The notes under the pieces are model-generated. The model saw only the letters and a program-made list of their open reading frames with translations, made no database searches and was not told the DNA's origin. From Bacteroidota bacterium (GTDB taxonomy: Bacteria; Bacteroidota; Bacteroidia; B-17B0; Aurantibacillaceae), in assembly GCA_021156365.1 (NCBI GenBank), contig JAJNDK010000006.1:62001-126000 (forward strand): DNA of 64,000 nt, given 5' to 3'. Below are positions 15,971-54,453 of the stretch, in pieces (positions within the stretch are counted from its first letter, which is position 1; each line of letters opens with the position of its first letter). The position numbers and the translations under genes were made by a program.

Positions 15971-15980
15971 TACGTAACAG

Positions 15981-17135: not shown

Positions 17136-17187
17136 GAGCTATAATAACCTGTATTCCAGCTGGTTTAGCACTGAATTTTATTTTTAC

Positions 17188-17195
17188 TAACTTTA
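17188..17195 (+). promoter_or_regulatory. Possible internal promoter of the polysaccharide locus
   Basis: TAACTTTA, one mismatch from TAnnTTTG, lies in the 108-base gap 49 bases before the ATG at 17244. This is one of the wider gaps inside the run of + strand polysaccharide genes. Confidence 0.3.
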
Positions 17196-17243
17196 AAGAC
17201 AAATTTTCAGGACCGCGGATTTATATTTTAGTTCAATTACCCT

Positions 17244-28995: not shown

Positions 28996-30024
28996 ATGTC
29001 AGCAACTATTTTAGTCACGGGCGGTTCCGGCTACATCGGTTCACACACCATCATCGAATTGTTCAACAATGGATTCGATGTGGTATCGATCGATAATCAA
29101 AGCAATTCCTCTGTGGATGCCTATGATCATATCGAACAGATCACCGGCAAACGCGTGGTCAGCTATTCGGCAGACGTATGCGATATAGCACAGCTGCGTG
29201 GGTTGTTTTCCAAACACCGCATTGAAGGTATCATTCATTTTGCGGCCTTCAAAGCCGTGGGTGAATCGGTGGAAGATCCTTTAAAATATTACCACAACAA
29301 CATCGCTTCCCTGGTTTCCGTGCTTCAGTTGTCGGAAGAATTCAATGTAAACAAGCTGATCTTTTCTTCCAGCTGCTCTGTGTATGGCAATGTGACCAGT
29401 TTGCCTGTTGATGAGAATACCGCTTTACCGAAAGCGGAATCGCCGTATGCATATACTAAACAAATAGGCGAAGTGATGATCGAGAATTTTTGTAAAGTGC
29501 ATCCTGCACTGCAGGCTGTATCCCTTCGTTATTTTAACCCGGTGGGCGCACACAAGAGTGGTCTGAATGGAGAATCGCCGATCAACAAACCCAACAATCT
29601 TGTTCCGGTTATTACTGCCACTGCCATTGGGAAGATCCCGCAGCTTACCATATACGGAGGTGAGTATCCGACACGCGATGGTACCTGTGTACGTGATTAT
29701 ATTCATGTTTCGGATGTGGCCGATGCACATGTATTAGCATTAAAGTACCTGATCGACGGGAAGAACAGCGTCAATTACGATGTGTTCAATCTTGGTACGG
29801 GCAATGGTGTGTCGGTACTCGAGGCGATCCATGCGTTCGAGAAAGTATCGGGACAGAAACTGAACTACCGTATCGGGCCACCGAGAGAAGGAGATGTGGT
29901 GGCAGTGTATTCCGACAGCAGCAAGGCAGGAAAACTCTTAGGCTGGACCTGTAAATTTGATATCGATGAGATGATGCGCACCGCCTGGCTTTGGGAACGG
30001 AATGTGGCGGAACGGAAAAAGTAG
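28996..30024 (+). CDS. galE: UDP-glucose 4-epimerase
   Basis: A 342-residue short-chain dehydrogenase-type epimerase. The NAD-binding TGGSGYIGSH lies at 8-17, GIIHFAAFKAVGESVEDP near 80, the catalytic Ser in FSSSCSVYG and the YxxxK motif in SPYAYTKQIGE (Tyr150, Lys154). The substrate region has LRYFNPVGAH and DGTCVRDYIHVSDVADAH. It interconverts UDP-glucose and UDP-galactose or the N-acetyl forms and would supply precursors to the adjacent transferases. Length is typical. It ends the polysaccharide locus. Confidence 0.95.
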   Translation: MSATILVTGGSGYIGSHTIIELFNNGFDVVSIDNQSNSSVDAYDHIEQITGKRVVSYSADVCDIAQLRGLFSKHRIEGIIHFAAFKAVGESVEDPLKYYHNNIASLVSVLQLSEEFNVNKLIFSSSCSVYGNVTSLPVDENTALPKAESPYAYTKQIGEVMIENFCKVHPALQAVSLRYFNPVGAHKSGLNGESPINKPNNLVPVITATAIGKIPQLTIYGGEYPTRDGTCVRDYIHVSDVADAHVLALKYLIDGKNSVNYDVFNLGTGNGVSVLEAIHAFEKVSGQKLNYRIGPPREGDVVAVYSDSSKAGKLLGWTCKFDIDEMMRTAWLWERNVAERKK

Positions 30025-30044
30025 TTCTGCTGAAGCGAATACAT

Positions 30045-30096
30045 TAACTGGCCAGACACAGATTACACGGTCCCGAGAGCTCTCGGGATGGATGAG
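30045..30096 (+). repeat. Dispersed repeat, copy B, with palindromic core
   Basis: CTGGCCAGACACAGATTACACGG at the left and GGATGAG at the right match copies A and C. The core is replaced by the 18-base perfect palindrome TCCCGAGAGCTCTCGGGA (30071-30088). Confidence 0.75.
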
Positions 30097-30245
30097 TATT
30101 AAAGGGTCAATACTTTCATAGATTGGTCCTTGTATTTGCCAGTTTTGATGATAGCACCAGCAAAAGCAGAAATATTTTCAATCTGCCATCTGCGTAAATT
30201 TATTTAAGCCATAAGTATCTGCGACATCTGCGTAATCTGTGTCTG
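30053..30245. repeat. Element bounded by near-perfect 16-base inverted repeats
   Basis: CAGACACAGATTACAC at 30053-30068 and GCGTAATCTGTGTCTG at 30230-30245 are inverted copies with one mismatch. The roughly 160 bases between them carry no open frame of note. The form resembles a short non-autonomous mobile element, but no target-site duplication was identified. Confidence 0.5.
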
Positions 30246-30399
30246 TTTTCAAAAAGCTTCACGGGCAGCATATTCCACCCTCCTATGTAAAGAAAAAATT
30301 AAATTAATCTGTCTTTTGTGCTAAACACATGTAGCTGAGTTTACAATTTCTTATTGCTCCATTAATCCGCTGCTGATGGCAATTGGATAGTTTAGCCAA

Positions 30400-32724
30400 A
30401 TGAAAAAATTAATACTATTCTCCTCTTTAATTTTACTCAGCACGATCAGTTTCTCCCAGGTAAGCCTTATTTCAGCAGGATCTTCCTGGAAATATCTTGA
30501 TAACGGTTCTGATCAAAACACCCAGTGGACAAGCCCGACATTCAGCGATGCAGCCTGGAACACGGGCAATGCAGAGCTTGGCTACGGTGATGGCGATGAG
30601 GCTACAGTTGTTTCCTATGGCCCGAACTCGGGAAACAAATACATAACTACCTATTTCAGAAAAACATTTACGGTTTCCAATCCTTCCCAGTTCACAAACC
30701 TGGCGCTCGAAATGGTACGTGATGATGGCGCTGTAGTATACATCAACGGGCAGGAAGTGTTCCGTACGAATATGCCTTCCGGAACTCCGTTCTATACGAC
30801 CGAAGCCAGCTCTACTGTTGCTTTCGGTGCCGAGGACGACTGGAACGCATTCAGCGCAAGTCCTTTGACACTTGTCAGCGGAACGAACACTATCGCGGTT
30901 GAAATTCACCAGGATGATCCGGGCAGTTCCGACATAAGCTTTAACCTGAAGATGGACGGAATAACAGTTCCGCAGAATTTCACGCTGGAGCGCGGTCCCT
31001 ATCTTAACCAGGCTTCTCCTTCAAGCATTATCGTGAAATGGAAAACAACGCAGGCCACGGATACGAAGCTGAGCTATGGATCCAGCCCCTCCGCACTTAC
31101 CCAAACGATCACCGTTGCGAATTCCTCCACCGATCACGAAGTGCACATTACCGGTTTGCAGCCGTTCACACAATATTATTATTCGATCTCCTGCAGTGGC
31201 AATTCACTTACCACACCGGCGGCTGATCTGTATTTCAGAACCATGCCGAATTACGGACAACGCGGTGATTACCGTTTCTGGGTTACGGGCGATGCAGGAG
31301 CGGGAAGCACCGGCCAGAGAGATGTGAGAACAGCATTCGACAATTACAATGCAGGCAGGGTGCTGGACGGTTGGCTTTGGCTGGGCGACAATGCATACGA
31401 AGGCGGTTCACAAAGCGAATATCAGTCCAATGTGTTCTCTAATAACACGTATGAGAACAATCTGAAAAACACAGCGGTATGGCCTGCTGCAGGTAATCAT
31501 GATTACAACAACCATATTCCTTTTTCACCAAGCCCTGCCTACTTCGACATTTTTTCTTTGCCTTCTAATGGCGAGTGTGGTGGTGTAGCATCCGGCAGCG
31601 AACAGTATTATTCTTACAATTACGGCAACATTCATTTTATCGTGCTCGAATCGTTTGATGTAAGCCGTGCCAGCAACGGGCCTATGGCTACCTGGTTGCA
31701 GAGCGATCTGGCTGCGAATACGCAGGAGTGGACGATCGCTTACTGGCATCATCCTCCGTATACCAAAGGAAGTCATGATTCGGATAATCCTACGTTTATT
31801 GATTATGAATTGCCAGAGCTTCGTCAGAATATTATTCCCATTCTTGAAAATTACGGAGTGGATCTCATCCTCAACGGGCACAGTCATGTGTATGAGCGTT
31901 CTTACCTGCTCGACGGGCATTATGGATATTCCAGCTCCTTCCAGCAAAGCATGAAATTAGACAACACTTCGGGCTCATACCCTGCGGATTGCCCGTATAT
32001 GAAAAATACCACGCAGTCTTCATCGCACAAAGGAACCGTATACGTTGTCTGCGGATGTTCGGCAAAACACGACAGCTCGCCTGCTTCCGGCTGGCCGCAT
32101 CCTGCATTCTATAATTACACCTTTGCCGAAATGGGTTCTATGGCGATTGATATAAAAGACAATATGCTGCAGGGGAAATTCGTTACGACCAACGGCACTG
32201 TTTTCGATTCTTTTACGATCGTGAAAAATGCAGGTGGCAATACCGATATTACTATTTGCCCGGATGATACAGTTACACTTGTTCCTTCGTTTCCATCGGC
32301 GATGAACTGGTTTCCCGGTAACATGCAGGCGGATTCCATACAAATAAACACACCGGTGAGCACAGTCTATTATGCATCCGATCTTGCGGGTTGTCCTACG
32401 GATACATTTACGATCAATGTAGTGAACCTGCCATCCTGTAACCCTGTTGGCTTGTCGGAAGCTCAAAACACTATTTTCAAAGTGTATCCGACTATACTGA
32501 GAGAAGACCAAAAAGAAATCACCATCGAAAGCGGCATCTTTGCCGGATCGTTTATTGAACTGCTCGATATAAACGGAAAAAACATCTGGAGCACGAACCT
32601 GTCGCTGAAGGAAGGCAACAATGTTTTGTTACTGGATGCAAAGATGAACGGCGGACTTTATATATTACGAATTAAGACAGCTAACCAGGAAGAACAAACA
32701 ATCAAACTTTTATATGCAGAATAA
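30400..32724 (+). CDS. Secreted purple-acid-type metallophosphoesterase with T9SS sorting domain
   Basis: A 774-residue exported protein. The signal peptide ends near STISFSQ (about 20). An N-terminal beta-sandwich of about 170 residues is followed by an FN3-like purple acid phosphatase N-domain (RGPYLNQASPSSIIVKWKT, from about 197). The metallophosphoesterase domain carries the metal ligands in WVTGDAGAG (about 297), LGDNAYEGG (328), GNHDYNN (365), YWHHPPYTKGSHDS (449) and NGHSHVYERSY (491). The C-terminus from about 690 is a type A sorting domain (FKVYPTILREDQ ... GGLYILRI). It should hydrolyse phosphate esters outside the cell. The stop overlaps the next gene by 11 bases. Confidence 0.9.
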   Translation: MKKLILFSSLILLSTISFSQVSLISAGSSWKYLDNGSDQNTQWTSPTFSDAAWNTGNAELGYGDGDEATVVSYGPNSGNKYITTYFRKTFTVSNPSQFTNLALEMVRDDGAVVYINGQEVFRTNMPSGTPFYTTEASSTVAFGAEDDWNAFSASPLTLVSGTNTIAVEIHQDDPGSSDISFNLKMDGITVPQNFTLERGPYLNQASPSSIIVKWKTTQATDTKLSYGSSPSALTQTITVANSSTDHEVHITGLQPFTQYYYSISCSGNSLTTPAADLYFRTMPNYGQRGDYRFWVTGDAGAGSTGQRDVRTAFDNYNAGRVLDGWLWLGDNAYEGGSQSEYQSNVFSNNTYENNLKNTAVWPAAGNHDYNNHIPFSPSPAYFDIFSLPSNGECGGVASGSEQYYSYNYGNIHFIVLESFDVSRASNGPMATWLQSDLAANTQEWTIAYWHHPPYTKGSHDSDNPTFIDYELPELRQNIIPILENYGVDLILNGHSHVYERSYLLDGHYGYSSSFQQSMKLDNTSGSYPADCPYMKNTTQSSSHKGTVYVVCGCSAKHDSSPASGWPHPAFYNYTFAEMGSMAIDIKDNMLQGKFVTTNGTVFDSFTIVKNAGGNTDITICPDDTVTLVPSFPSAMNWFPGNMQADSIQINTPVSTVYYASDLAGCPTDTFTINVVNLPSCNPVGLSEAQNTIFKVYPTILREDQKEITIESGIFAGSFIELLDINGKNIWSTNLSLKEGNNVLLLDAKMNGGLYILRIKTANQEEQTIKLLYAE

Positions 32725-34318
32725 ATTACGTTTACACATTACATGTATAGTACTCTTCGTATTCGGCAGCCTGTCGTTATGGTCGCAGTGCGGAACCACT
32801 ACCATCAGCGGTAATTACACCGTGAATGCCGATATTATCCTGAGCGGGATTTACAATGTGAGCGGCGAGTTCAAAATTCCTGCTGGCATTACCGTTTATG
32901 TGAAGCCTTTCTCTTCCGGCGCTTGCGGAACCCTTGAGATACATGCACAGAAAATAACGATACTTGGTACGATCAATGGCGACTACGCCGGAAAGACCGG
33001 TGGAACAGGTGGCCCGGGCGGCTCCCTCGTAAGCAGTATTACCGGTGATATTACGGCCCTCGATGATTGTAGTAACAAAGACAATACGGGCGTTGTAATG
33101 ATCGCAGGCGGTTCGGCAGGCAATCCCGGTACTGGCAATGGTCTGGGACTGGCGGGTCAGAACGGGCAAACCGGCTCGGGGCCTAAACAACAATGTTTGA
33201 ACAATGACGATGAGTGCGGAATGATCGGTGGTGCTTCGGGTGCCGGCGGCGGTGGCGGCGGAAGTTATGGTGGCGCCGGAACACCAGGTGGTAACGGAGG
33301 CAATGGATCGGATGCATATGTGGCAACGGATGTGAATGTGTCAACCGCTTACCCGGTGGTTGGCGGAACAGGGACAGCCGGTGGAAATGCAGGAAGCACC
33401 TATGGAACGATAAGCGGTACTGATATTGACTTAGGATCGGGTGGTGCAGGAGCAGGCGGCGGTGGACGTTCGTTTGCAACAGGCCTCCAGGGAGGTAATG
33501 GCGGTGCGGGCGGCGGATTGGTAAAATTAATAGCAAGCGATTCGGTAAAGATCAACGGTAGCATTTCTGTGAATGGAGCGAATGGCGCTGCCGGAGGAAT
33601 AGGTGGCAATGGTGGGATCTCTACCAAATGCTGTTCGGACGGATGTGATGATGCAGGTGAAGAAACCATGTCCTGCGGTGCAGGTGGTGGTGGTGGCGCA
33701 GGCGGCGGATCAGGTGGAGGAATTTACATCGAAACACAAACAGCGGCGCTTATCTCCGGAACACTGAACAGCAAAGGCGGTAACGGTGGCAATGGCGGAA
33801 GCAAAGGCATAGGTACCAGCGACAGTTACAGCGGAGGTATTTTCTGCGGAACACAATCCCTCTCAAGCTCCGATGGAAACAACGGAGATAAAGGCGGAGC
33901 AGGCGGCGGCGGACGCATCAAAATATTTGCACCGGTTTGTGCAGCTTCATCTGTCACTCCACTTACGAACCTGCAGGGCGGAACCGGCTTAACAAGCGGC
34001 ACTGCGGGAACTTATACATTCGTTTGCAGCCCGGTGTCTTTGCAGGAGCAGGAAAAAGAATTGTTCGCACTCACTGTATTCCCGAACCCTGCTACAGAGC
34101 AGATCAGCTTACAATTTAAAAATACGATCAACCCTGAAAAGGTGAGTGATATAACGATATACTCATTGATGGGCCAGCTGATCACAAGCCAGGATGGTAC
34201 CGACCTGAAAACGAACGGATCGCAGGCCATAGATGTTTCTATGTTCCCCGCAGGAATGTATTTTATTAAAGTAACCATTAACTCCATCAGCTATGACTAC
34301 CGGTTTATCAAAAACTAA
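32714..34318 (+). CDS. Secreted glycine-rich protein with T9SS sorting domain
   Basis: A 534-residue protein. The signal peptide ends near SLWSQ (about 25). Residues about 95-415 are about one-third glycine, with runs such as GAGGGGGGSYGGAG, GGAGAGGGGRSF, GGNGGAGGGLVKLIA, GAGGGSGGGIYIETQ and GGAGGGGRIKIF. Short beta segments alternate with glycine loops, as in right-handed beta-helix surface proteins. A Cys-rich insert (CCSDGCDDAGEETMSC) lies at about 307-322. The C-terminus is a type A sorting domain (LTVFPNPATEQISLQF ... AGMYFIKV). No enzymatic motif is seen. It overlaps both neighbours (11 and 26 bases), so it is probably translated as a unit with the two phosphatases. Confidence 0.85.
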   Translation: MQNKLRLHITCIVLFVFGSLSLWSQCGTTTISGNYTVNADIILSGIYNVSGEFKIPAGITVYVKPFSSGACGTLEIHAQKITILGTINGDYAGKTGGTGGPGGSLVSSITGDITALDDCSNKDNTGVVMIAGGSAGNPGTGNGLGLAGQNGQTGSGPKQQCLNNDDECGMIGGASGAGGGGGGSYGGAGTPGGNGGNGSDAYVATDVNVSTAYPVVGGTGTAGGNAGSTYGTISGTDIDLGSGGAGAGGGGRSFATGLQGGNGGAGGGLVKLIASDSVKINGSISVNGANGAAGGIGGNGGISTKCCSDGCDDAGEETMSCGAGGGGGAGGGSGGGIYIETQTAALISGTLNSKGGNGGNGGSKGIGTSDSYSGGIFCGTQSLSSSDGNNGDKGGAGGGGRIKIFAPVCAASSVTPLTNLQGGTGLTSGTAGTYTFVCSPVSLQEQEKELFALTVFPNPATEQISLQFKNTINPEKVSDITIYSLMGQLITSQDGTDLKTNGSQAIDVSMFPAGMYFIKVTINSISYDYRFIKN

Positions 34319-36179
34319 GTGGCTTACATCGATCCTGTTTTTCTTTGCCGCCTGCATCACAGCGGGAGCACAGAGTGTATTGCATACTTCAACACTTGAA
34401 GCCTGTCTTGCACCTTTTTATCATGGCGTTGCTTCCGGCGACCCGATGGCAGACAGGGTAATTATCTGGACAAGGGTTACACCCGATACGGTGAGCAGCG
34501 ATCCGGTACTGGTGTCGTGGAGAATGGCTACCGACACGGGTATGACGACGATCATTCAGAACGGAAGCCTGATGACGGACAACACAAAAGATTATACGGT
34601 GAAAGTGGATGTGCAGAACCTTACACCCAACACCTGGTATTATTATGAGTTCTCTGTGAATGGCTTCAACTCTCCGCGTGGAAGAACAAGGACAACACCG
34701 TTGGGCAATGCGGACAGTCTTCGTTTTGCGGTAGTGTCCTGTGCCAATTACGAAGCAGGATTTTTTAATTCCTATAAAGCCTTGCTCAACAGGGCCGATT
34801 TTGATGCTGTCATTCATCTGGGTGATTACATCTATGAATATGAAACAGGAGGCTATGCGCCCAACACAGCAGTGAACAGGCAATGGATCCCGGCCAACGA
34901 GATCCTGTCGCTGTCCGATTACCGCGAGCGTTATTCAACCTATCACCTTGATGAGGACCTGCGCAAGCTGCATCAGCAGTTCCCTTTCATCACGGTGTGG
35001 GACGATCATGAATCGTCCAACGATGCGTGGATGAACGGAGCGGAGAACCACCAGGCAAACGAAGGTCCTTTTGCCCTGCGTAAGGCCTATGCAAAACAAG
35101 CCTATTTCGAATGGCTGCCTATCCGCGAAACCGGCGTAAGCGATCCTTACCAGATCTTCCGTAAACTTTCCTATGGCAATTTAGTCGACCTGATCATGCT
35201 GGATACACGCCTTCATGGCCGTGAAGTACAAAGCGGCACTTCAGGAGCAGTGGTTACCAATACGAACAGGCAACTCTTAGGGACCGACCAGTTCTCGTGG
35301 ATGTCTGAGCGGCTGGACTCTTCACAGTGCAGGTGGAAAGTGCTGACACAACAGGTAATGGTGGCACCTTTGAAAGTATTTGGGGTGGCTGTGAACGGTG
35401 ATCAGTGGGATGGTTATCCGGCAGAACGGGATCGTCTCTTCAATCACATCCTGACGAACAATATAAAAGACATCGTAGTTATCACAGGCGATATTCATTC
35501 TTCCTGGGCCAATGATCTTCCTACTTCTTCCTACAATGGTTCTACCGGTGGCGGGTCGGCAGGCGTTGAGTTTGTAGGACCAAGTGTTACCTCACCAGGC
35601 ATGAGCATTCCGGCCGGTTCTGCGGTTATTATGGCATCCAACTCGCATATCAAATATGCAGACCTTTCGCAGCATGGCTTTATGATAATGGATGTAAATC
35701 AGAACAGGGTGCAGAACGATTGGTACTATGTGCCTTCGGTGGATATTTCTTCCGCTACCTGCAATTGGGGGAAATCGTTTTATGTGAATCATCTCGAACG
35801 TTTTCTGCGCAGCACAAATACAGTGAGCTTCCCGAGGAACAGTATTTACGGTGCCATGGCGCCACTATGCCCGAGGATCATCAGCCCGGTTGCGATCAAA
35901 GAAGCAACACCTTTCAAAATTTCCAACGTGTATCCGAACCCGGCAAATAACAATCTCGTAGTTAGCTTTATGAATGCAGCCGGATTGGAAAATGGGGAGA
36001 TCAGCATCATGAATGCGGCAGGGCAACTGGTGAAGAAAATTGATTTCAGTAAAAATGACTTATACAATGCACAACTGTTGATAGACGTGACGGAGCTGGC
36101 CGATGGTTTTTACACCGGGCTGGTGAAACAGGGACCAGCAAATGCATACTTTAAATTCATCAAACAAAAGAGTAATTGA
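34293..36179 (+). CDS. phoD: Secreted PhoD-type alkaline phosphatase with T9SS sorting domain
   Basis: A 628-residue exported phosphatase. After the signal peptide (ends near ITAGAQS), the PhoD N-domain starts GVASGDPMADRVIIWTRVTP at about 45. The catalytic domain has AVVSCANYEAGFFNSYKAL, HLGDYIYEYE (about 175), VWDDHESSNDAW (about 235), MLDTRLHGRE and VVITGDIHSSWAND (about 397), the usual metal and phosphate ligands of PhoD. The C-terminus is a type A sorting domain (ISNVYPNPANNNLVVSF ... DGFYTGLV). It releases phosphate from diesters and monoesters. The gene overlaps the glycine-rich gene by 26 bases and the peroxidase gene by 4. Confidence 0.92.
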   Translation: MTTGLSKTKWLTSILFFFAACITAGAQSVLHTSTLEACLAPFYHGVASGDPMADRVIIWTRVTPDTVSSDPVLVSWRMATDTGMTTIIQNGSLMTDNTKDYTVKVDVQNLTPNTWYYYEFSVNGFNSPRGRTRTTPLGNADSLRFAVVSCANYEAGFFNSYKALLNRADFDAVIHLGDYIYEYETGGYAPNTAVNRQWIPANEILSLSDYRERYSTYHLDEDLRKLHQQFPFITVWDDHESSNDAWMNGAENHQANEGPFALRKAYAKQAYFEWLPIRETGVSDPYQIFRKLSYGNLVDLIMLDTRLHGREVQSGTSGAVVTNTNRQLLGTDQFSWMSERLDSSQCRWKVLTQQVMVAPLKVFGVAVNGDQWDGYPAERDRLFNHILTNNIKDIVVITGDIHSSWANDLPTSSYNGSTGGGSAGVEFVGPSVTSPGMSIPAGSAVIMASNSHIKYADLSQHGFMIMDVNQNRVQNDWYYVPSVDISSATCNWGKSFYVNHLERFLRSTNTVSFPRNSIYGAMAPLCPRIISPVAIKEATPFKISNVYPNPANNNLVVSFMNAAGLENGEISIMNAAGQLVKKIDFSKNDLYNAQLLIDVTELADGFYTGLVKQGPANAYFKFIKQKSN

Positions 36180-38074
36180 TTTTGATCAGAGGTTTAGTAG
36201 GATCCATAGTTCTTTGCACTGTTTTTTTTCTTTTGTCTTTTCACACAAAGGACGAAACCAACATAAATACCTGTAAAACGTATATTCATGGGGAGACAAA
36301 AAAGATCATCGAAGTTCTCGATCAGTCGCTTGTTAATCTTGATAGTGTTAAGGACGATGCAGCAGGCAAACGACTAAAGGAACTTTATTTCCGGATGCGA
36401 AAGCACTACAAACATGTGGAGTGCTTTGTGGAATATTATTCTCCTCACGATGCCAAATATTTTATAAACGGCCCGCTCGTAAAAAAATCGGAGCTGGAAT
36501 ACGGCAAGCGTGTCTACGATCCGCGTGGCATGCAGGTAGTAGAAGAGCTGCTCTTTGACGCGGACAGCCTCGATCGCAAAGCGCTGGCATATGAGTATCA
36601 GTATCTCCGGGAGGCGCTCAAAGCAATACTACCCAAAATACAAGCTGTTACCTTCGACGAACGACGCCTGTTCGATATGCTGCAATTTGAGCTGTACAGG
36701 CTGAGCTGCCTGAACCTGAATGGCTACGATGCCACCTTCACACAAACCAACCCGGGCGAATGTGCCTGGTCGCTCGAAGGATGTGAGCAGCTGCTGCAAG
36801 TCAGTTCCCAGCCGCAGGACAAAGTAAAATATACAAAATTACTGTCCCTCTTCGCGCAGGCAGAAACGTACTGCAAAAGCGCGAAAAGTAACAACACATT
36901 CAACCGCCTGTATTTTATTACGCGTTTCATGAATCCTTTGTACAAAGAGTTAGTGTTGCTTCGTAAGGAATTGAAAATAGAGCAGACGCAGGTGAATTAT
37001 GCGTTGAACCTCGCTTCGCCCGACATGTTCGGCAGCCGGATGTTCAACCCGCTTTTCTTTTCGGTGAATACAAAAGATACAGCCAACAACGCATTGCAAT
37101 CAGACTTAGGCAAGCTCCTGTTTTACGATCCGATTCTGTCGGGCAACAACGAAAGGGCTTGTGCATCCTGTCATCAGGCGGGCAAGGGTTTTGCCGACGG
37201 ATTACAAAAGGCGCTGTCTTTTTCCAAAGATTCCGTTCTGTCGAGGAACACGCCCGGCTTGTTGAATGCTATGTATCAGCGTAATTTTTTCCTGGACGGA
37301 AGATCACGCCAGTTGGAGCAGCAGGTAAACGATGTACTGCACAATCGGAATGAAATGAATACCACGGTGGATGCAATTATCAGCAAGCTCAACAAATCAA
37401 TAGAGTACCGGAAATTATTCCAATCGGCCTTTGCCGGCTCTCCCGACACCAGCATCAGTTATTATGGCATCCTGAAAGCCATTACCGAATATGAAAAAAC
37501 GCTGGACTCGCGCAACAGCCGTTTTGATAAATACCTGCGTGGAAATTATACCCAGCTGTCGGCTGCTGAAATAAAAGGCTACAATCTTTTTTCCGGGAAA
37601 GCGCTCTGTGCCACTTGTCATTTCCTGCCTTTGTTTACAGGACTTGTGCCGCCTTACTTTAACGATACGGAATACGAAGTAATAGGAGTGCCTGCCACAA
37701 AAGACAGCAAAGAAGTGGATGTTGACAAAGGACGCACGGTTGTGTCGTTGGTCGCTATCCACCAGCATGCTTTTAAAACTACCACTGTCCGAAATATTGG
37801 GATCACTGCGCCGTATATGCACAATGGTGTTTACACAACGGTGGATGAAGTACTAGATTTTTACAACAAAGGCGGCGGGAACGGAATGGGCATGCAGCTA
37901 CCGAACCAGACACTGCCTTTCGATTCCCTCCAGCTCAACAAACAGGAGCTGAGTAGCATAAAATCTTTTTTGTTGTCCCTCACCGATACCTCCGGGATAC
38001 CGGGTCCTCCGAAAAGATTGCCACAGTTTGAAGAAGCGGCGTTGAACAAAAGGAAGATCGGGGGGACGTATTAG
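36176..38074 (+). CDS. Diheme cytochrome c peroxidase (MauG/CcpA-like) with a long N-terminal extension
   Basis: A 632-residue exported protein. No ATG is available: TTG at 36176 overlaps the preceding TGA, with another TTG at 36182. A hydrophobic segment (GLVGSIVLCTVFFLLSF) acts as signal or anchor. Residues about 35-280 are helical and unlike standard peroxidases. The peroxidase part has the first haem site CASCH (about 328), DGRSRQLEQQVNDVLHNRNEMN, the second haem site CATCH (about 477) and APYMHNGVYTTVDEVLDFYNKGGG. These enzymes reduce peroxide or oxidise protein side chains in the periplasm. It has no sorting domain. The coupling to the two phosphatases is unusual. Confidence 0.85.
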   Translation: MILIRGLVGSIVLCTVFFLLSFHTKDETNINTCKTYIHGETKKIIEVLDQSLVNLDSVKDDAAGKRLKELYFRMRKHYKHVECFVEYYSPHDAKYFINGPLVKKSELEYGKRVYDPRGMQVVEELLFDADSLDRKALAYEYQYLREALKAILPKIQAVTFDERRLFDMLQFELYRLSCLNLNGYDATFTQTNPGECAWSLEGCEQLLQVSSQPQDKVKYTKLLSLFAQAETYCKSAKSNNTFNRLYFITRFMNPLYKELVLLRKELKIEQTQVNYALNLASPDMFGSRMFNPLFFSVNTKDTANNALQSDLGKLLFYDPILSGNNERACASCHQAGKGFADGLQKALSFSKDSVLSRNTPGLLNAMYQRNFFLDGRSRQLEQQVNDVLHNRNEMNTTVDAIISKLNKSIEYRKLFQSAFAGSPDTSISYYGILKAITEYEKTLDSRNSRFDKYLRGNYTQLSAAEIKGYNLFSGKALCATCHFLPLFTGLVPPYFNDTEYEVIGVPATKDSKEVDVDKGRTVVSLVAIHQHAFKTTTVRNIGITAPYMHNGVYTTVDEVLDFYNKGGGNGMGMQLPNQTLPFDSLQLNKQELSSIKSFLLSLTDTSGIPGPPKRLPQFEEAALNKRKIGGTY

Positions 38075-38244
38075 CAGACCGGGAAGAATACTAAGCTTTT
38101 CTACATTGCTATGAGCAATGTTAATTTAACACGCTCATCCACTTTACATTCCGAACACACGGGTAATGATTCGGTAGTGTTGCCATAATTTGCATCAACA
38201 TACAAACCTGTAATTTTCTCTTTTTTTAAATTCAAGCCCTTATT

Positions 38245-40938
38245 ATGAAAAATAACTACAAAGCTTTATTGAGTATTCTTTTTGTTGGCCTTAGTGCAAC
38301 ATCCTTCGCCCAAACCCAACTGGCGATCTGGGATTTTGCCACCGTGGCCAATGCAGCTACAAACGCTATCAATGCTACCACGGATGCGGTGCCGGGCACA
38401 CCCAGCCTGAAACAATTTTACCAGACGATCGATAACAACGGAAAAGGCGGAACTACCTACACAGATGCCAATTCGGTAGCACACACTGCCGGAAGCGCCA
38501 TTGCATGGGATGATATCAAAGGATCGGGCATCGATGCAGAGCTACAGATAACACTCAGCACCACGGGCTGGGAAAATATATTCTTTCGTTTCAATTACAA
38601 AAGCGAATCGGCCGAAACATTCGATCTCCGTTACTCGCTGGACAACGGCGCTTCCTGGACACTGATCCTGGACGATGCTGCTATCACGGGAGATAATGCA
38701 TATCATGCAAAGGTGAATAACCTTTCTGCCTTCAGCAATATAGAAGATCAGCCGACTGTTATGTTCAAGATCTCCGAATTGGATAATACAGGCAACGATC
38801 AGTTCGTATTTGACAATATCGAATTCTACGGCAGCCAGATCGCTCTTGTACCGGGTGTTCCTTCTATCCAGGCGCATTCATCCACTACCCGTTTCCTCAA
38901 TAACAACACCCATAGCGGAAGTGCCAGTGGCGTGATGAGCGATCCTACGGATCCGTGCAGGACCAAAGGACTGAACTTCCTGCTGAGAGACAGCAATACG
39001 CCGCTCAATACATTGGTGGTTACTGCTTCCAGCTCTAATACAACTGTAGTACCCAATGCAAACCTGGCGCTGACTACTATCAACGACAGTATCCGCAACC
39101 TGGAGATCACACCGGCTGTAGCTGGCTACTCCGATATTACCATCAGTGTAAGCGACGGTTCCAATTCGGATTCGTATGTGCTCAACTACGCCGCTTCGGC
39201 TCCTACTTATGATATTCCCAACACGGTTTTCCACACAGGTATTTCCGATGGCTCTACAAGTATTGATGCCGGCAACAATTACATCATTGCCGCTGACGAT
39301 GAAACAAATGCATTGTTGTTGTATCACAAAGATTCTTCGGGGCATATTTTAAATCAATTCAATGTAGGCGCTGCTATGGGTCTGCAGGAAGAGGGCGATT
39401 TTGAAGCATCCTGCCGCAAAGGCAACAGGACCTATTGGATGGGCTCCCTGGGCAATTCGGTGAACGGAAATATCAAGCCATCACGTCATCGTTTTTTTGC
39501 TACGGATGTTTCGGCCAGCGGGAGCTCGGTTGCTGTAAACTATGTTGGCAATTACGATATCCGCAATGCTATTATTTCCTGGGGCGATTCGCACGGATAT
39601 AATTTTATGGCAAGCGGTGCAGACGGGATGATCCCTAAGCAGATCGGCGGGCTCAATGTAGAAGGTATGTGTCTTGCACCTGCTACTTCTACCTTGTATA
39701 TCGCATTCAGGGCGCCATTGGTGCCGGTGAGCAACCGTACCAAAGCACTGATCTGCCCGGTAACGAATTTCGAAACCTGGTTCAACAATGGCTCACCTTC
39801 GGGATCTCCTACTTTCGGTACACCTATCGAACTGAACTTAGGTGGAAGAGGTATCCGTAGCATCGAACAAAATGCAAACGGGCAATTCCTGATCGTTGCA
39901 GGTAGTTATGACAGCAATCACAATGCCGCCCTGTATGAGTGGGACGGCAACCCTGCCAGCGCACCGGTACTGCTCACAGCAGACCTCACCGATCTGAACC
40001 CGGAAGGGATCGTAAGTTTTCCATCTCCTTTTTACAATGGATCGACGGTGGAGCTGATGAGCGACGATGGAACGGATACCCTCTACAACGACAACATCGA
40101 GAACAAACTATTGAACGATGCTAACAAAAAAAAATTCAGGACAATAAAAATTGCAACCACCGGCGGAACCCTGGCTCCATGTGTCGGACCTAATTTGACC
40201 GGTGTTACCGCATCTCAAACAGCTATCTGTGCAGGAGGTTCTACCACACTTACCATTACAGGCACACTCAACAGCGCTACTGCATGGCAGGTATACACAG
40301 GCAGTTGCGGATCGGTAAGCGCTGGCAGTACAGCTACGGGAACCATGAGTGTGTCGCCGACCGCCACCACTACTTATTATATCAGGGGTGAGGGTGGATG
40401 TACAATGCCCGGTGCCTGCAATACTATCACGATCCAGGTAAATCCATTGCCGGTAGTGAATACCAATCTTTCGGCGATCGACTCGCAGTGTGTGAATACA
40501 TCTGCGATCGCATTGAGCGGCGGTAGCCCGGCAGGCGGAACATATTCAGGTGCAGGTGTATCAGGCGGGAATTTTTCTCCTGCAGCAGCAGGTACCGGAG
40601 TTCACCAGATCACTTATACCTACACGGATGCCAATAGCTGTGTGAATTCTGCAGCGGCTTCTATGACTGTACTGGCTTGTGTGGGGATCGCGGATCAGAA
40701 AGCAGGGTCTGCCACTTTCCTGTATCCGAATCCGACAACTGGTAATTTCACTATCGTGCATCCGGTTAACGGGAAAACAAAATTGAGCATTTATAATACG
40801 CTCGGACAATTGGTGAAAAGCCAGGAACTGACAGCTAGCGGGCAATCGATCAATACCAGTACATTCCCTGCCGGTGTGTATTACATCCAGCTGGATAACG
40901 GTATATCGGTTTGGACGAACAGGCTTATCAAGGAATAA
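38245..40938 (+). CDS. Secreted DUF3616-containing protein with T9SS sorting domain
   Basis: An 897-residue protein with signal peptide ending at SATSFAQ. Residues about 25-200 form a beta-sandwich (IWDFATVANAA ... FVFDNIEFYG), followed by an Ig-like stretch to about 315. Residues about 325-640 resemble DUF3616, a probable beta-propeller (YIIAADDETNALLLYHKDSSG, EGDFEASCRKGNRTYWMGSLG, GGLNVEGMCLAP). Two Ig/SprB-like repeats follow (SQTAICAGGSTTLTITG; SPAGGTYSGAGVSGGNFSP) and then a type A sorting domain (TFLYPNPTTGNFTI ... AGVYYIQL ... RLIKE). Function is unknown. It sits 170 bases after the peroxidase and ends in a strong terminator. Confidence 0.85.
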   Translation: MKNNYKALLSILFVGLSATSFAQTQLAIWDFATVANAATNAINATTDAVPGTPSLKQFYQTIDNNGKGGTTYTDANSVAHTAGSAIAWDDIKGSGIDAELQITLSTTGWENIFFRFNYKSESAETFDLRYSLDNGASWTLILDDAAITGDNAYHAKVNNLSAFSNIEDQPTVMFKISELDNTGNDQFVFDNIEFYGSQIALVPGVPSIQAHSSTTRFLNNNTHSGSASGVMSDPTDPCRTKGLNFLLRDSNTPLNTLVVTASSSNTTVVPNANLALTTINDSIRNLEITPAVAGYSDITISVSDGSNSDSYVLNYAASAPTYDIPNTVFHTGISDGSTSIDAGNNYIIAADDETNALLLYHKDSSGHILNQFNVGAAMGLQEEGDFEASCRKGNRTYWMGSLGNSVNGNIKPSRHRFFATDVSASGSSVAVNYVGNYDIRNAIISWGDSHGYNFMASGADGMIPKQIGGLNVEGMCLAPATSTLYIAFRAPLVPVSNRTKALICPVTNFETWFNNGSPSGSPTFGTPIELNLGGRGIRSIEQNANGQFLIVAGSYDSNHNAALYEWDGNPASAPVLLTADLTDLNPEGIVSFPSPFYNGSTVELMSDDGTDTLYNDNIENKLLNDANKKKFRTIKIATTGGTLAPCVGPNLTGVTASQTAICAGGSTTLTITGTLNSATAWQVYTGSCGSVSAGSTATGTMSVSPTATTTYYIRGEGGCTMPGACNTITIQVNPLPVVNTNLSAIDSQCVNTSAIALSGGSPAGGTYSGAGVSGGNFSPAAAGTGVHQITYTYTDANSCVNSAAASMTVLACVGIADQKAGSATFLYPNPTTGNFTIVHPVNGKTKLSIYNTLGQLVKSQELTASGQSINTSTFPAGVYYIQLDNGISVWTNRLIKE

Positions 40939-41112: not shown

Positions 41113-42765
41113 ATGAAACATTTGCCTCTTATTGTTCTTCTTTTTCTTTGCAGTTCCAGCATGTTCCCACAGGCTGTAGTAATAAACGGATATTTTAATG
41201 CAGCCGACCCGAAGGATGAGTGGATCGAGCTGTTAATAATAACAGATAATACGGATATACGCGGTTGGACCATCCGTGATAATAATGCGAGCCAAACCTC
41301 CTGGCAGACTGCTATTACCTTTCAAAATCATGCACTCTGGAATAATTTACGTTCAGGCACTGTGATCATGATCTGGAATCGCCTTATCAGTACTACTTCT
41401 GTTACGCATGTAATGCTGGATGTAAATAAGGCAGATGGTTATATTGAACTGAGTGCACAGGACGGAACCTATTTTACCGGTAGTGCTTTCGGAACCTCTC
41501 CTTCCTGGGCAGGAGCTTCATTGAACATAGCCGGGGGCGGAGAGATCATTGAATTGCGCAATTCGGGAGGAACACATGTACATGGCCTGGGGCATTTGTC
41601 AAGTGCAGGATCTGACTGGACAGCGATGGCCACTCCGAAATTAAATCATGCCAACAGTGCAAACTCCGGTGATGCGATCTATGTATGCCCTGGCGCTTCC
41701 ATTACCGATTACAACGGCCCCGCTACGGGAAATAATTTTACTTCCAAAAATGATGTAACGATCACCTTTGGTTTGCCAAACACCTGCGGAGCAAGCGCTA
41801 CAGGTAACACCAATTACTGGCTCAGCCTGCGTCAACCGGTAATAACATCCCAAACCGTGACACCAACAGGTGTAGGCGGAAATCCGGGAAGCCTTACATT
41901 TAGCTGGACTGCTGCTACGGATCCCAATACTGCTGATAACGTAACCGGTTATATTGTCCTGAAGAATACCATAAACACCTTTACCGCACCGACTGACGGA
42001 ACCACATATGCGGTCGGAGCTACGATCGGATCGGCTACCGTGATAGCACACACGAATTCCACTACTTACACCTATACGGATAATACGGTGAACACAAGTA
42101 ACTGTTATTATTACAGGGTGTATGCGTATCGATACGGAACCGACGACAGGAACGGGAACAGTTACAATCAGGCAAGAGGCCGGGCATACAATCAGCTTAA
42201 CTTTATTACAGTTCCCTGCTTTACGATTGTTCTGCCGGTTCAGCTCAGTTATTTCAAAGCACTGCGGAATAAAAAAGAAGTAGCTATAAGCTGGGAAACC
42301 GCCTCTGAATTCAACAGCCGTTTTTTTGAAGTAGAGAGAAGCATGGACGGTAGCTTGTTTGAAACAGTAGCGCATGTGGAAGCAGGATTGTACAGCAATC
42401 ATACAAACAGCTATACTGCTACAGATGCCGACCCACTGAAAGGAAGAACTTATTACCGGCTGAAACAGGTGGATGTGAACGGTGAATATATGTACTCAGC
42501 GATCGTGTCGGTAGAACCGGCTGCATTGGACTTTTCTATGTATCCCAATCCTGTTACTACCGGCAAGCTGACCATTACGGAATACGATTGCGGAGAAAAT
42601 ATGGAATATGAAATATACAGCCTTCAGGGCACGCTGCTCAAAAAAAATGCAGACTACACAACAGGTGAAACGATAGATGTATCGGACCTGGAGAACGGGA
42701 TGTACAGCATCAGGATCAGCTGCGAAGGGCAGCAGGCCATGAAACAGCTCTGTATCATTAAATAA
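41113..42765 (+). CDS. Secreted lamin-tail-like protein with T9SS sorting domain
   Basis: A 550-residue exported protein (signal peptide ends near SMFPQ). Residues about 20-165 look like a lamin tail domain (VVINGYFNAADPKDEWIELL, DIRGWTIRDNN, GEIIELRNSGGTHVHGL). An FN3-like domain with SFSWTAATDPNTADNVTGY spans about 235-360. A second beta-domain follows, LQLSYFKALRN...-type (LSYFKALRNKKEVAISWETASEFNS), common next to sorting domains. The C-terminus is type A (FSMYPNPVTTGKLTITE ... NGMYSIRI). No catalytic domain is seen. It lies 9 bases before the PstS-like gene. Confidence 0.82.
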   Translation: MKHLPLIVLLFLCSSSMFPQAVVINGYFNAADPKDEWIELLIITDNTDIRGWTIRDNNASQTSWQTAITFQNHALWNNLRSGTVIMIWNRLISTTSVTHVMLDVNKADGYIELSAQDGTYFTGSAFGTSPSWAGASLNIAGGGEIIELRNSGGTHVHGLGHLSSAGSDWTAMATPKLNHANSANSGDAIYVCPGASITDYNGPATGNNFTSKNDVTITFGLPNTCGASATGNTNYWLSLRQPVITSQTVTPTGVGGNPGSLTFSWTAATDPNTADNVTGYIVLKNTINTFTAPTDGTTYAVGATIGSATVIAHTNSTTYTYTDNTVNTSNCYYYRVYAYRYGTDDRNGNSYNQARGRAYNQLNFITVPCFTIVLPVQLSYFKALRNKKEVAISWETASEFNSRFFEVERSMDGSLFETVAHVEAGLYSNHTNSYTATDADPLKGRTYYRLKQVDVNGEYMYSAIVSVEPAALDFSMYPNPVTTGKLTITEYDCGENMEYEIYSLQGTLLKKNADYTTGETIDVSDLENGMYSIRISCEGQQAMKQLCIIK

Positions 42766-42774
42766 AAACAGTCT

Positions 42775-43629
42775 ATGAAAAAAATAGTTTTCTCCCTGGT
42801 TATTCTGACGGCACTGGCCGCTTGTTCGCATTCCGGTAAACATCCCGAAGCCTCCGGAGAAAAAAGCCAGCTCCGGGTGATAAAAATAAAGGGCAGTGAA
42901 ACCATACGTCCTTTTATTGAACAGGCGATTGTAAAGTACGAACAATCACATCCGAATATCATTATAGACTACACTGGTGGCGGAAGCAATCTGGGCCTGA
43001 TGGCGCTGAAACAAAACGAGGCGGATGTTATCTTCACTTCCAAATCCTTTAACGAAGATGACCTGGAAGGAATGCCGCAGGGAAAATCGCTACAGACAGA
43101 AATACTCGCATATGATGCATTGTGCGTGATCGTAAGTATCAAGAACCCCATCAACGAGATCAGCAGGGCACAACTGTCCGATATTTATTCGGGTGCAGTA
43201 AAGAACTGGAAAGAGCTGGGTGGTCAGGATGCTCCGATCCAGGTCTATTCACGTGACATATCTTCGGGCTCGTATAGTTTTTTTAAAGACCGTGTGTTGC
43301 TGAACGAAAATTATTCTTCTACCGATATCAACCTGGTGCACAACGAAGAGATCGTGAACAATGTAAGGGATAAAGTGAATGCGATCGGCTATGTAGGACT
43401 TGGAAATGTGAATGCAGAAGTGAAAAGCCTGAAGCTGAAGAAGGAGGGAGAAGGAGAGTTCACTGCACCGAATCTTGTGAATGTAAAAGGCAATTCGTAT
43501 TTATTGAGCAGAGAGTTGAGCTGTATGTATTTCCTTGAATCGGATATGGCCGTGAAAGATTTTATCACTTACCTGAAATCCGCTGAAGCAAAAGAAATAG
43601 TACAGGAAGTGGGTTTTCTGAATAAATAA
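42775..43629 (+). CDS. PstS-like phosphate-binding lipoprotein
   Basis: A 284-residue protein with a lipobox (LAAC, Cys17). It has IKGSETIRPFIEQAIVKYEQSHPNI, DYTGGGSNLGLMALKQNEADVIFTSKSFNEDD, ISRAQLSDIYSGAVKNWKELGG, VYSRDISSGSYSFFKDRVL and VNAIGYVGLGNV, the usual order of ligand loops in the PstS family. It should bind phosphate at the envelope. No pstC, pstA, pstB or phoU gene is in the window, so it may work alone or with a distant permease. Its position next to the secreted phosphatases supports a phosphate role, as inference. Confidence 0.87.
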   Translation: MKKIVFSLVILTALAACSHSGKHPEASGEKSQLRVIKIKGSETIRPFIEQAIVKYEQSHPNIIIDYTGGGSNLGLMALKQNEADVIFTSKSFNEDDLEGMPQGKSLQTEILAYDALCVIVSIKNPINEISRAQLSDIYSGAVKNWKELGGQDAPIQVYSRDISSGSYSFFKDRVLLNENYSSTDINLVHNEEIVNNVRDKVNAIGYVGLGNVNAEVKSLKLKKEGEGEFTAPNLVNVKGNSYLLSRELSCMYFLESDMAVKDFITYLKSAEAKEIVQEVGFLNK

Positions 43630-49112: not shown

Positions 49113-50360
49113 TTATTGATCACTTCCGCCATTGTCTTTGTTTTGCTTGTTAAAAGCATCAAAGTCAAACGACAGGCTGAAACGCAGGGTATTCTGAAGC
49201 GGATTGTTTCTTGGCACCGTTGGGATCAGGTAAGCAAAATCAAAACCGAATACATTGTATTTAACCCCGATCCCCATGGTGAAGAACTGTCTTCCGCCTT
49301 TGGTTTTGTTTTCGTGGAAGTAACCTGCACGTACGGCAAATAATTTATCATACCAGTATTCTACACCTGCCTGAAGAATGATCTCTCTTAGCTCTTCTTT
49401 TGCTCCGCCCGGCGCATCGGAAAATGAACCGAATAACCCTTCTGCAATACCCCTGTGCGGATCTTTTCCTGCTTCGATCTCTTTCTCGCCATCGGCATTT
49501 TTTATGTAGGCACCGCTTGCATCCAGTTTGTACACTGGTGGAGTAGGTACAAGAAGTTTGTTGACATCGGCCGTGAAAGCAAAACTGTTGAATTCGTCCG
49601 CATTGATCTTCAGACAACCTCCTAACTTCATATTCATCGGCAAAAAGTTTTTGCTGTCGGGGCTTGCATTATCGGTGTAGGACATTTTGTTTCCCATGTT
49701 GGAAATATTGAAGCCTCCGCTTACAACCGCCTTTTTCCCGCTTATTTTGATCTCATCGTCGGTGTAAAAGCCCGAAATATCCACTGCTACTGCCTGACCT
49801 GCATGTGTAGCTGTGTTACCCACATTCACACCACCCGTTAAATTGGAATTGATATAACGCAATGCCATACCTGCAGAGAATTTTTCACCTAACTTACGTG
49901 TATACGCTACATCAATGGCAAATTCGTTGGGTTTGAAATTTCCGGTAGTGTTACCAACTACATCCGTGAACGTAATATTTCCTAAAGAGAAGTATCGCAG
50001 CGATCCGCCAATGGCAGAGTTTTTATCTATCTTTCCATAACCTGCAAGATACGCAAGGCTGATATCCGGGACCAATTGCCTTAACCAGGGAGAATAGGAA
50101 GCCGCAAAGCCCATCTTCTTGTCCATAAAAGCATATTTGGAAGCATTCCAGTGCATAGAGTTGATATCGGGGCTGGTTGCAGCGCCGCATTCGCCCATAG
50201 CACCTGCTCTTGAGTCCGGTGAGATCAGTAATAGAGGAACCGCTGTTGTTATGGCATTGATATCCGATCCGCCTAACTGGCCCGTCTTGATCTGAGCAAA
50301 TGATATATTTTTTGCAACAACACCTATCAAAAGGCTTAAAACAACTTTTTTACTCTTCAT
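49113..50360 (-). CDS. porV: T9SS outer-membrane protein PorV (LptO)
   Basis: The ATG at 50360 (MKSKKVVLSLLIGV) gives 415 residues; eight extra upstream residues are possible but disrupt the signal peptide. The FadL-like barrel carries the PorV start: INAITTAVPLLLISPDSRAGAMGECGAATSPDINSMHWNASKYAF, then LAYLAGYGKIDKNSAIGGSLRYFSLGNI. The C-terminal barrel ends VFGFDFAYLIPTVPRNNPLQNTLRFSLSFDF. PorV collects cargo from the translocon and delivers it to PorU for cleavage and attachment. It lies 36 bases downstream of porU and is almost certainly cotranscribed. Confidence 0.94.
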   Translation of the reverse strand: MKSKKVVLSLLIGVVAKNISFAQIKTGQLGGSDINAITTAVPLLLISPDSRAGAMGECGAATSPDINSMHWNASKYAFMDKKMGFAASYSPWLRQLVPDISLAYLAGYGKIDKNSAIGGSLRYFSLGNITFTDVVGNTTGNFKPNEFAIDVAYTRKLGEKFSAGMALRYINSNLTGGVNVGNTATHAGQAVAVDISGFYTDDEIKISGKKAVVSGGFNISNMGNKMSYTDNASPDSKNFLPMNMKLGGCLKINADEFNSFAFTADVNKLLVPTPPVYKLDASGAYIKNADGEKEIEAGKDPHRGIAEGLFGSFSDAPGGAKEELREIILQAGVEYWYDKLFAVRAGYFHENKTKGGRQFFTMGIGVKYNVFGFDFAYLIPTVPRNNPLQNTLRFSLSFDFDAFNKQNKDNGGSDQ

Positions 50361-50396
50361 TCTGCAATATCTGAAATGAGCCACGAATTTAAGTTT

Positions 50397-54314: not shown

Positions 54315-54416
54315 TTTTTGTTTATTTGTTGAAAAACGTATCTTTTGAAGACAAATAACGTAAACAGAAGCAAAATATTATCAAAAATAATTTTTCTTTT
54401 TATGATTTTTTAATAT

Positions 54417-54424
54417 TATATTTG
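54417..54424 (+). promoter_or_regulatory. -7 promoter element of the porP/sprF gene
   Basis: TATATTTG is a perfect TAnnTTTG match in an AT-rich region, 29 bases before the ATG at 54454. Confidence 0.6.
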
Positions 54425-54453
54425 TGTTCCTTTAAATTTAAGGTATTTTGTGT

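Follow-up and report, generated by a model that had tools for sequence, protein, structure and literature searches.

A Bacteroidota phosphatase gene cluster ending in a fused EfeO-like and MauG-like dihaem protein

The gene cluster and its products

We have analysed a stretch of 64,000 nucleotides from a member of the Bacteroidota (family Aurantibacillaceae; contig JAJNDK010000006.1, positions 62,001 to 126,000 of the forward strand), referred to below as the window, in which four open reading frames (ORFs) follow one another on the forward strand at 30400-32724, 32714-34318, 34293-36179 and 36176-38074. Their products are, in this order, a secreted purple-acid-type metallophosphatase (PAP, 774 aa), a glycine-rich surface protein (GLY, 534 aa), a secreted alkaline phosphatase D (PhoD, 628 aa) and a dihaem protein (PRX, 632 aa) that begins at a TTG codon; family assignments for these and the other window proteins come from scans with Pfam and NCBIfam models. 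A first-pass annotation of this DNA, made from the sequence alone, had described four genes with overlaps of 11, 26 and 4 bases, a TTG start for PRX, and type IX secretion system (T9SS) sorting domains on every product except PRX, and the ORF coordinates and model scans bear it out on each of these points. The T9SS tails of GLY and PhoD score above the Pfam cut-off, and that of PAP is recognised by NCBIfam TIGR04183 only (26.2 bits against a cut-off of 23; Pfam 18.7 against 27), so that all three have the C-terminal sorting domain of T9SS cargo; no T9SS model of either collection matches PRX. Terminator-like sites are not over-represented across 30000-38400 (6 on the two strands, against 8.4 ± 3.0 in shuffled sequence). 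The four genes are probably co-transcribed in this strain.

PAP matches the Metallophos (2.8e-16) and Pur_ac_phosph_N (3.2e-10) models and the solved purple acid phosphatase 6gja (4.2e-16). Residues D298, D330, Y333, N366 and H367 are present in 38 of 39 PAP sequences, H450, H494 and H496 in all 39, and H451 in 34; we take these to be the five metal-ligand motifs of purple acid phosphatases, including GDxxY, and on that assignment PAP has the full set. PhoD carries both PhoD_N and PhoD domains (PhoD 9.7e-108), matches the solved structures 9uya (1.3e-113) and 2yeq (4.3e-87), and is the sole match to the PhoD model in its own genome, with a score below the cut-off of the strict NCBIfam model NF058638 (351.8 against 1000). 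Its Cys150, Asp178 and Tyr181 are kept in 21 of 21 sequences, the Cys and Tyr presumably lying near the iron site. In GLY the T9SS tail is the only domain above cut-off, and its AlphaFold model, built on an alignment of four sequences, is of low confidence (mean pLDDT 48.5); the beta-helix-like character ascribed to it in the first-pass annotation is a possibility at most.

PRX joins an EfeO-like domain to a MauG-like dihaem domain

PRX had been annotated as a diheme peroxidase, and while it is indeed a two-haem CCP_MauG protein it is not a plain peroxidase, since its C-terminal half is MauG-like and its N-terminal half has the M75 fold of EfeO and imelysin. A hydrophobic helix at the N-terminus probably serves as an export segment. 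The N-domain (approximately residues 25-270; 36248-36985, forward strand) is identified both by sequence profile and by structural alignment, and the C-domain (approximately residues 304-626; 37085-38053, forward strand) has by structural alignment the dihaem fold of MauG and the bacterial cytochrome c peroxidases (bCCPs). The AlphaFold model of PRX is confident (mean pLDDT 93.5, pTM 0.91).

Compared with solved structures as a profile built from an alignment of 77 relatives, the C-terminal half matches the MauG-like copper-homeostasis protein 6e1c (7.7e-59), which we take to be MbnH, the bCCP 1iqc (2e-58) and MauG 3l4m (6.5e-50). Structural alignment gives a similar picture, with 6e1c (Z 34.1) tied with MacA 4aan (33.7) and other bCCPs (33-34), followed by MauG 3l4m (Z 29.9) and BthA 6nx0 (Z 27.9). 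The N-terminal half matches EfeO (2.2e-8), EfeM (7q1g; 4.4e-8) and Algp7 (4.8e-8) in the alignment of 77, and Algp7 (1.9e-9) and EfeO (1.3e-6) when that half is used alone. Its closest structures are Algp7 3at7 (Z 23.1, 231 residues aligned, rmsd 2.7), EfeO 7wgu (Z 22.9, 240 aligned, rmsd 3.9), the imelysin-like 3pf0 (Z 22.5) and EfeM (Z 22.4). In single-sequence scans of 41 PRX members the Pfam M75 model gave no matches.

Conservation was counted over 172 unique long PRX sequences. The first haem motif, CASCH (residues 329-333; 37160-37174, forward strand), and the second, CATCH (residues 478-482; 37607-37621, forward strand), keep C329, C332, H333, C478, C481 and H482 in all 172. Tyr563 (37862-37864, forward strand) lies in a gap-free alignment at position 294 of MauG, the axial tyrosine ligand of the second haem, and is likewise a tyrosine in 172 of 172, so that PRX has the CCP_MauG fold, the two CxxCH motifs and the tyrosine of MauG-type dihaem proteins. 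When this tyrosine of MauG is mutated to histidine, the near-infrared bis-Fe(IV) feature is lost, as it is in the Y463H variant of BthA (PMC6405878). No position in the 172 sequences has tryptophan at 30% or more, and the tryptophan relay of MauG is therefore not kept; the inter-haem tryptophan is also missing from BthA (PMC6405878). In the N-domain acidic residues are kept at position 123 (154/172) and position 185 (172/172).

PRX is below the NCBIfam cut-offs both for MauG (TIGR03791, 165 bits against 443.85) and for MbnH (TIGR04039, 185.4 bits against 362.85). It is not MauG proper, the enzyme of tryptophan tryptophylquinone synthesis, and the six scanned window proteins beside it are phosphatases, T9SS proteins and a PstS-like protein, with no mau gene context. 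The MbnP model has no match among the scanned window proteins or among the part of the neighbours elsewhere that was scanned. The tyrosine-ligand signature and the EfeO-like domain narrow the range of actions that PRX might have.

Most long PRX genes lie beside phosphatase genes

Searching with the single PRX sequence returned no relatives, and those considered here were found by a profile search as the best 80 of at least 587 relatives (in at least 596 stretches). Because such a set is biased towards close relatives, a class-wide sample was drawn as a correction. We compared the neighbours of long (fused) PRX genes with those of short MauG-like genes from the same family, using a phosphatase classifier that was built from the PRX neighbours and misses other phosphatase types, for which reason the class names rest on Pfam, NCBIfam and PDB matches of the members.

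Before removal of duplicates, a phosphatase-class gene is adjacent to the long PRX in 104 of 119 loci and within three genes of it in 109, and no short MauG-like gene among 42 has such a neighbour (Fisher 2e-26 for adjacency and 2e-29 for three genes, values that ignore relatedness). The controls were 40 regions with 42 short ORFs, namely 38 of the first 39 short-form entries (G075 was skipped) and two from the genome of the window, and none of these regions contains a phosphatase-class ORF anywhere. Some loci recur (judged by length, L077 and L047 lie on the same contig, as do L080 and L056, and others overlap between sets), and when all sets are combined and de-duplicated on the PRX sequence a phosphatase-class gene is adjacent in 140 of 173 loci and within three genes in 148; four of the other 25 are at contig edges.

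Long PRX genes (E ≤ 1e-60) occur in 73 of 395 genomes of the class, 66 of them outside the family, and in 53 of 197 genera. The class-wide sample, which was not selected by closeness, provided 60 loci, one per genome (G106 was already in the earlier set, and G203, G233, G289, G425 and G441 were left out), and in these a phosphatase-class gene is adjacent in 41 and within three genes in 44.

The partners belong to unrelated families: PAP, PhoD, PhoX and AcpA-type phosphoesterases. Within the PhoX group the PhoXb profile matches solved PhoX (1e-17) and the L070 member matches PF05787 (4.4e-9); in class PhoXa only 4 of 22 members reach the Pfam PhoX model, and no solved structure is matched. For the AcpA type, the L106 and L123 members match PF04185, and that of L106 also scores above the cut-off of TIGR03397. 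At one locus (L135) a histidine-phosphatase-like gene (6574-7914) precedes PRX and a PAP-class gene follows it. A small c-type cytochrome-like lipoprotein (~125 aa) is encoded downstream of PRX in 23 of the 173 unique loci (for example L063-L075), 17 of which have a PhoX-class gene before PRX, and it is possible that this protein donates electrons to PRX or accepts them from it.

Conservation of the gene order

The order PAP-GLY-PhoD-PRX on one strand recurs in 16 of the 18 family genomes that contain GLY, out of 87 genomes; the taxonomic order comprises the same 87. Fourteen of these have the cluster within a single stretch (16 loci less the duplicates L077 and L080; the end of the contig truncates PAP in L039), and in G034 and G016 the order was judged from coordinates across the borders of the sequence stretches examined. 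The two remaining GLY genomes are incomplete at the locus: in G071 the contig ends within GLY, and G001 has, close to the end of a contig, a partial PRX in the opposite orientation. Absence from relatives would have spoken against the unit proposed in the first-pass annotation, and the identical order in relatives shows instead that the arrangement goes beyond coincidence. The closest relatives have like junctions (a gap of -26 between GLY and PhoD, and of -1 or +2 between PhoD and PRX), more distant ones mostly have short gaps rather than overlaps at the first two junctions, and intergenic gaps over all units range from -47 to +76.

Of the 395 genomes in the class-wide sample 30 contain GLY, and 26 of these are from outside the family. 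Twenty GLY regions outside the family were read. Among them L244 has the complete unit, L245, L246 and L248 have PAP-GLY-PhoD but lack PRX, L243 has GLY-PhoD, and the GLY frame is broken in L247 and L250. In the other 13 (L231-L242 and L249) the GLY-like region is the N-terminus of proteins of approximately 950-1,500 aa; those of L231, L239 and L249 were read by eye, and a model scan of the L242 protein found CHU_C, PKD and Ig domains. We also considered that GLY is a scaffold specific to phosphatases, an idea that is weakened because GLY begins such large proteins in 13 of 20 regions. In Fluviicola chungangensis (L087) PRX is read as separate pieces of 522 and 104 aa and is located upstream of PAP-GLY-PhoD rather than downstream.

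Links to phosphate starvation

The closest published parallel is in Flavobacterium johnsoniae, where the MauG-like Fjoh_2477 and the PhoX-like Fjoh_2478 are both increased on phosphate depletion, with transcript fold changes of 9.58 and 12.50 and whole-cell proteome values of 7.33 and 11.34, respectively (PMC8115612, Table 1); Fjoh_2477 was undetected in the exoproteome. According to its authors, all Flavobacterium genomes have phoX in an operon with a MauG-like gene, and deletion of phoX lowers the inducible phosphatase activity of F. johnsoniae (PMC8812569). The F. johnsoniae PhoX alone was inactive in Pseudomonas putida, which the same authors attribute either to faulty expression or localisation or to a need for some cofactor that the MauG-like protein makes (PMC8812569).

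We examined the regions upstream of 148 distinct phosphatase-class genes for direct repeats of 7 bases with at most one mismatch. Repeats with a period of 11 are present in 71 of the 148, where dinucleotide shuffles give 33.6 ± 5.5; among control genes 140 of 638 have them. The next highest periods were 22 (49 against 32.0 ± 4.1), 20 (45 against 30.2 ± 3.6) and 14 (43 against 31.3 ± 5.0). The spacing of PhoB boxes has a period of 11, and these repeats, examples of which are GGTAACG, TTTAAGA and ATTAACA, could represent a Bacteroidota Pho box. The excess belongs to the set of 148 and not to the upstream region of the window operon, which contains a weaker pair, TTATTGC-TCCA-TTAATCC (30351-30368, forward strand), 49 bases upstream of the first start codon; with two mismatches it is below threshold, and it is at most a possible degenerate Pho-box-like site.

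Several genes follow the cluster on the forward strand. A T9SS protein of 897 aa (38245-40938), of which only the tail is above model cut-off, possibly belongs to an extended phosphate cluster, and a relative of it (35% over 517 aligned positions) is encoded two ORFs downstream of PRX in L047. It is followed by a T9SS protein (41113-42765) with a lamin-tail-domain (LTD) match below cut-off, and LTD-like proteins are also found downstream of the unit in L038, L039 and L041. The third gene downstream of PRX encodes a PstS-like lipoprotein (42775-43629), and 9 of the 17 relatives checked have a PstS-like gene no more than two ORFs away from PRX. The PstC model has no match in the genome of the window and matches all 14 control genomes, and phosphate binding by this lipoprotein may be independent of a Pst transporter. 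In L057 the genes directly downstream of the unit (15180-18114) encode a metallophosphoesterase, a glycosyltransferase and a lipid kinase; in F. johnsoniae low phosphate induces genes of a similar kind, those for PlcP and glycosyltransferase (PMC8115612, Table 1). Three ORFs in L056 (1311-4186), known from coordinates alone, are similar to the L057 genes in size and start. Elsewhere in the window, near the operon at 49113-55407, are the T9SS-related PorV, a peptidase C25-domain protein that is probably PorU-like, and PorP/SprF.

A proposed function and its alternatives

We favour the interpretation that the cluster is a phosphate-starvation operon for surface phosphatases together with an oxidative maturation enzyme that perhaps acts on their iron, and we consider it to have about an even chance of being correct; the operon part is well supported, and the chemistry is what we infer. 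PAP and PhoD, exported through T9SS, would hydrolyse phosphate esters outside the cell and release phosphate at its surface, and GLY, predicted to be exported by the same route, may retain the two enzymes in the surface layer. We place PRX in the periplasm because it has c-type haems and no T9SS tail, and there it would act on the phosphatases before their export, with the MauG-type dihaem unit supplying a high-valent oxidant and the EfeO-like domain binding either iron or the client phosphatase. In the variant that we prefer it would oxidise or load the ferric ion that the phosphatases need.

The first-pass annotation had suggested a surface phosphate-release unit in which the peroxidase acts on metal centres, peroxide or protein side chains. 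Surface phosphate release is upheld by the conserved gene order, the T9SS tails, the nearby PstS-like gene, the genes downstream of the unit in L057 and the published induction of the Flavobacterium pair; the action of PRX is a more conjectural matter. Throughout the Bacteroidota its relatives usually have a secreted phosphatase as a neighbour, which suggests that PRX makes such phosphatases ready to function. PhoD and PAP contain a ferric ion, and we favour the iron centre as the target for two reasons: the partners come from different families and yet PhoX, PhoD and PAP have this ion in common, and the N-domain fold is linked to iron and haem peroxidases. PhoX contains iron (PMC8812569), imelysin-like proteins are reported to be almost always associated with EfeB-type peroxidases, with a small group fused to one (PMC3143127), and EfeM, which consists of M75 only, bound iron (PMC9174327).

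A number of observations weigh against this interpretation. The histidine of the GxHxxE motif is replaced in PRX by glutamine (146/172; Gln120 in the window) or threonine (21/172), and the canonical EfeO iron site is therefore not kept; the IPPA family of imelysin-like proteins similarly has no such histidine, and neither ferric ion nor haem was bound by two imelysin-like proteins of solved structure (PMC3143127). Fjoh_2477 is listed as predicted cytoplasmic (PMC8115612), at odds with the proposed periplasmic location. PRX is not obligatory, because the genomes of L245, L246 and L248 (86, 98 and 100% complete) have PAP-GLY-PhoD and no long PRX at E ≤ 1e-50 (the genome of L243 likewise contains no long PRX at this threshold); conversely, 16 of the 60 class-wide long PRX genes have no detected phosphatase within three genes. 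A second common partner was sought for such phosphatase-free genes and none was seen among the neighbours read, which were mixed and repeated only between near relatives. Comparison with the four PhoD sequences without PRX revealed no residues specific to PRX-associated PhoD, and comparison with the three PAP sequences without PRX gave two weak candidates, one tryptophan and one tyrosine. The AcpA-type and histidine-phosphatase neighbours are not known to be ferric enzymes. As to regulation, no Pho-box-like repeat with at most one mismatch precedes the window operon, the 11-bp repeat is found in only one of ten AcpA-class upstream regions, and a tied-motif search separates phosphatase from control upstream regions only slightly (6.29 against 5.94 per sequence).

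Among the alternatives, one that we think unlikely, if a serious contender, is that PRX modifies a phosphatase side chain in the manner of MauG and MbnH, through a cross-link, a kynurenine or a quinone-like residue, and so provides a protein-derived cofactor or stability. The retained tyrosine at the MauG Tyr294 position agrees with it, as does the haem domain, which is as close to 6e1c as to MacA and the bCCPs with which it is tied, and roles of this kind were suggested by the authors of both PMC8812569 and PMC6405878. With partners from different families, however, it is difficult to envisage one target residue shared by all; the tryptophan relay of MauG is missing (though BthA also does without its inter-haem tryptophan), and the weak tryptophan and tyrosine in PAP have no equivalent in PhoD.

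If instead PRX were a periplasmic peroxidase that protects the iron phosphatases or the starved cell from peroxide, its link to phosphatases would be one of co-regulation only. The close match of the haem domain to bCCPs and the small cytochrome-like lipoprotein, which could donate electrons, would fit, and BthA turns over peroxide well (PMC6405878). We nevertheless regard this as distinctly improbable given the phosphatase-class pairing in 140 of 173 loci against none of 42 short genes, and given the strict tyrosine of PRX at a position where bCCPs have a methionine ligand. Least probable of all is that PRX gathers iron for the cell or its phosphatases during phosphate starvation as a supply system like EfeO/EfeB, with no action on the phosphatase protein; the EfeO-like domain and the functional link between imelysin and peroxidase (PMC3143127) speak for such a role, but the HxxE histidine is replaced and PRX is linked to phosphatase genes.

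Returning to oxidative maturation, the most general form of the proposal is that the Bacteroidota have a dedicated system in which a fused EfeO-like and MauG-like enzyme would activate unrelated exported phosphatases (PhoX, PhoD, PAP and perhaps the AcpA type) through their shared ferric centre, with oxidation or insertion of iron taking place in the periplasm, and with BthA-phosA of Burkholderia as an independent case. So broad a claim we advance tentatively and consider doubtful. To our knowledge few MauG-like dihaem enzymes outside the mau system have a known client, BthA being among those that do not, and the link to several unrelated phosphatase families provides a directly testable client set. 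It could also explain the inactivity of Flavobacterium PhoX in a foreign host, and it bears on how metal centres are acquired by the surface phosphatases that soil and marine bacteria produce.

Comparison with known systems

We found no published account of a PAP-GLY-PhoD-PRX unit, nor of an EfeO/M75 domain on such MauG-like proteins or of generality over phosphatase families, in what was a partial coverage of the literature and thus weak evidence of novelty. The first-pass description of the cluster as not a standard operon appears right for the four genes, but a two-gene version with a MauG-like protein and a phosphatase has been in print twice (PMC8812569, PMC6405878).

The pair Fjoh_2477/Fjoh_2478 (PMC8115612, PMC8812569) is induced by phosphate depletion, and the Flavobacterium loci examined have a PhoX-type gene followed by a long PRX; from these other loci Fjoh_2477 is itself probably a long form. 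It differs from the window unit in consisting of two genes with a lipoprotein PhoX, in place of PAP, GLY and PhoD with their T9SS tails. BthA-phosA of Burkholderia (PMC6405878) similarly combines a MauG-type Tyr-His dihaem enzyme with a putative purple acid phosphatase, predicted to be at the outer membrane; BthA is always near such a phosphatase, and oxidation of this partner was suggested. It belongs to another phylum, however, BthA is described with an alanine-rich N-terminus and no M75 domain, PhoD and GLY are not mentioned in the text cited, and its match to PRX is in the haem part only (Z 27.9). MauG and MbnH (PF03150) share with PRX the fold, the two CxxCH motifs and the tyrosine at the MauG Tyr294 position, but PRX has phosphatases as neighbours and is below both NCBIfam cut-offs. 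Finally, the EfeO, EfeM and imelysin-like M75 proteins with their EfeB-type peroxidases (PMC3143127, PMC9174327) resemble PRX in the fold of the N-domain and in combining M75 with a haem peroxidase, whereas the haem part of PRX is CCP_MauG, its HxxE histidine is replaced, and its neighbour is a phosphatase.

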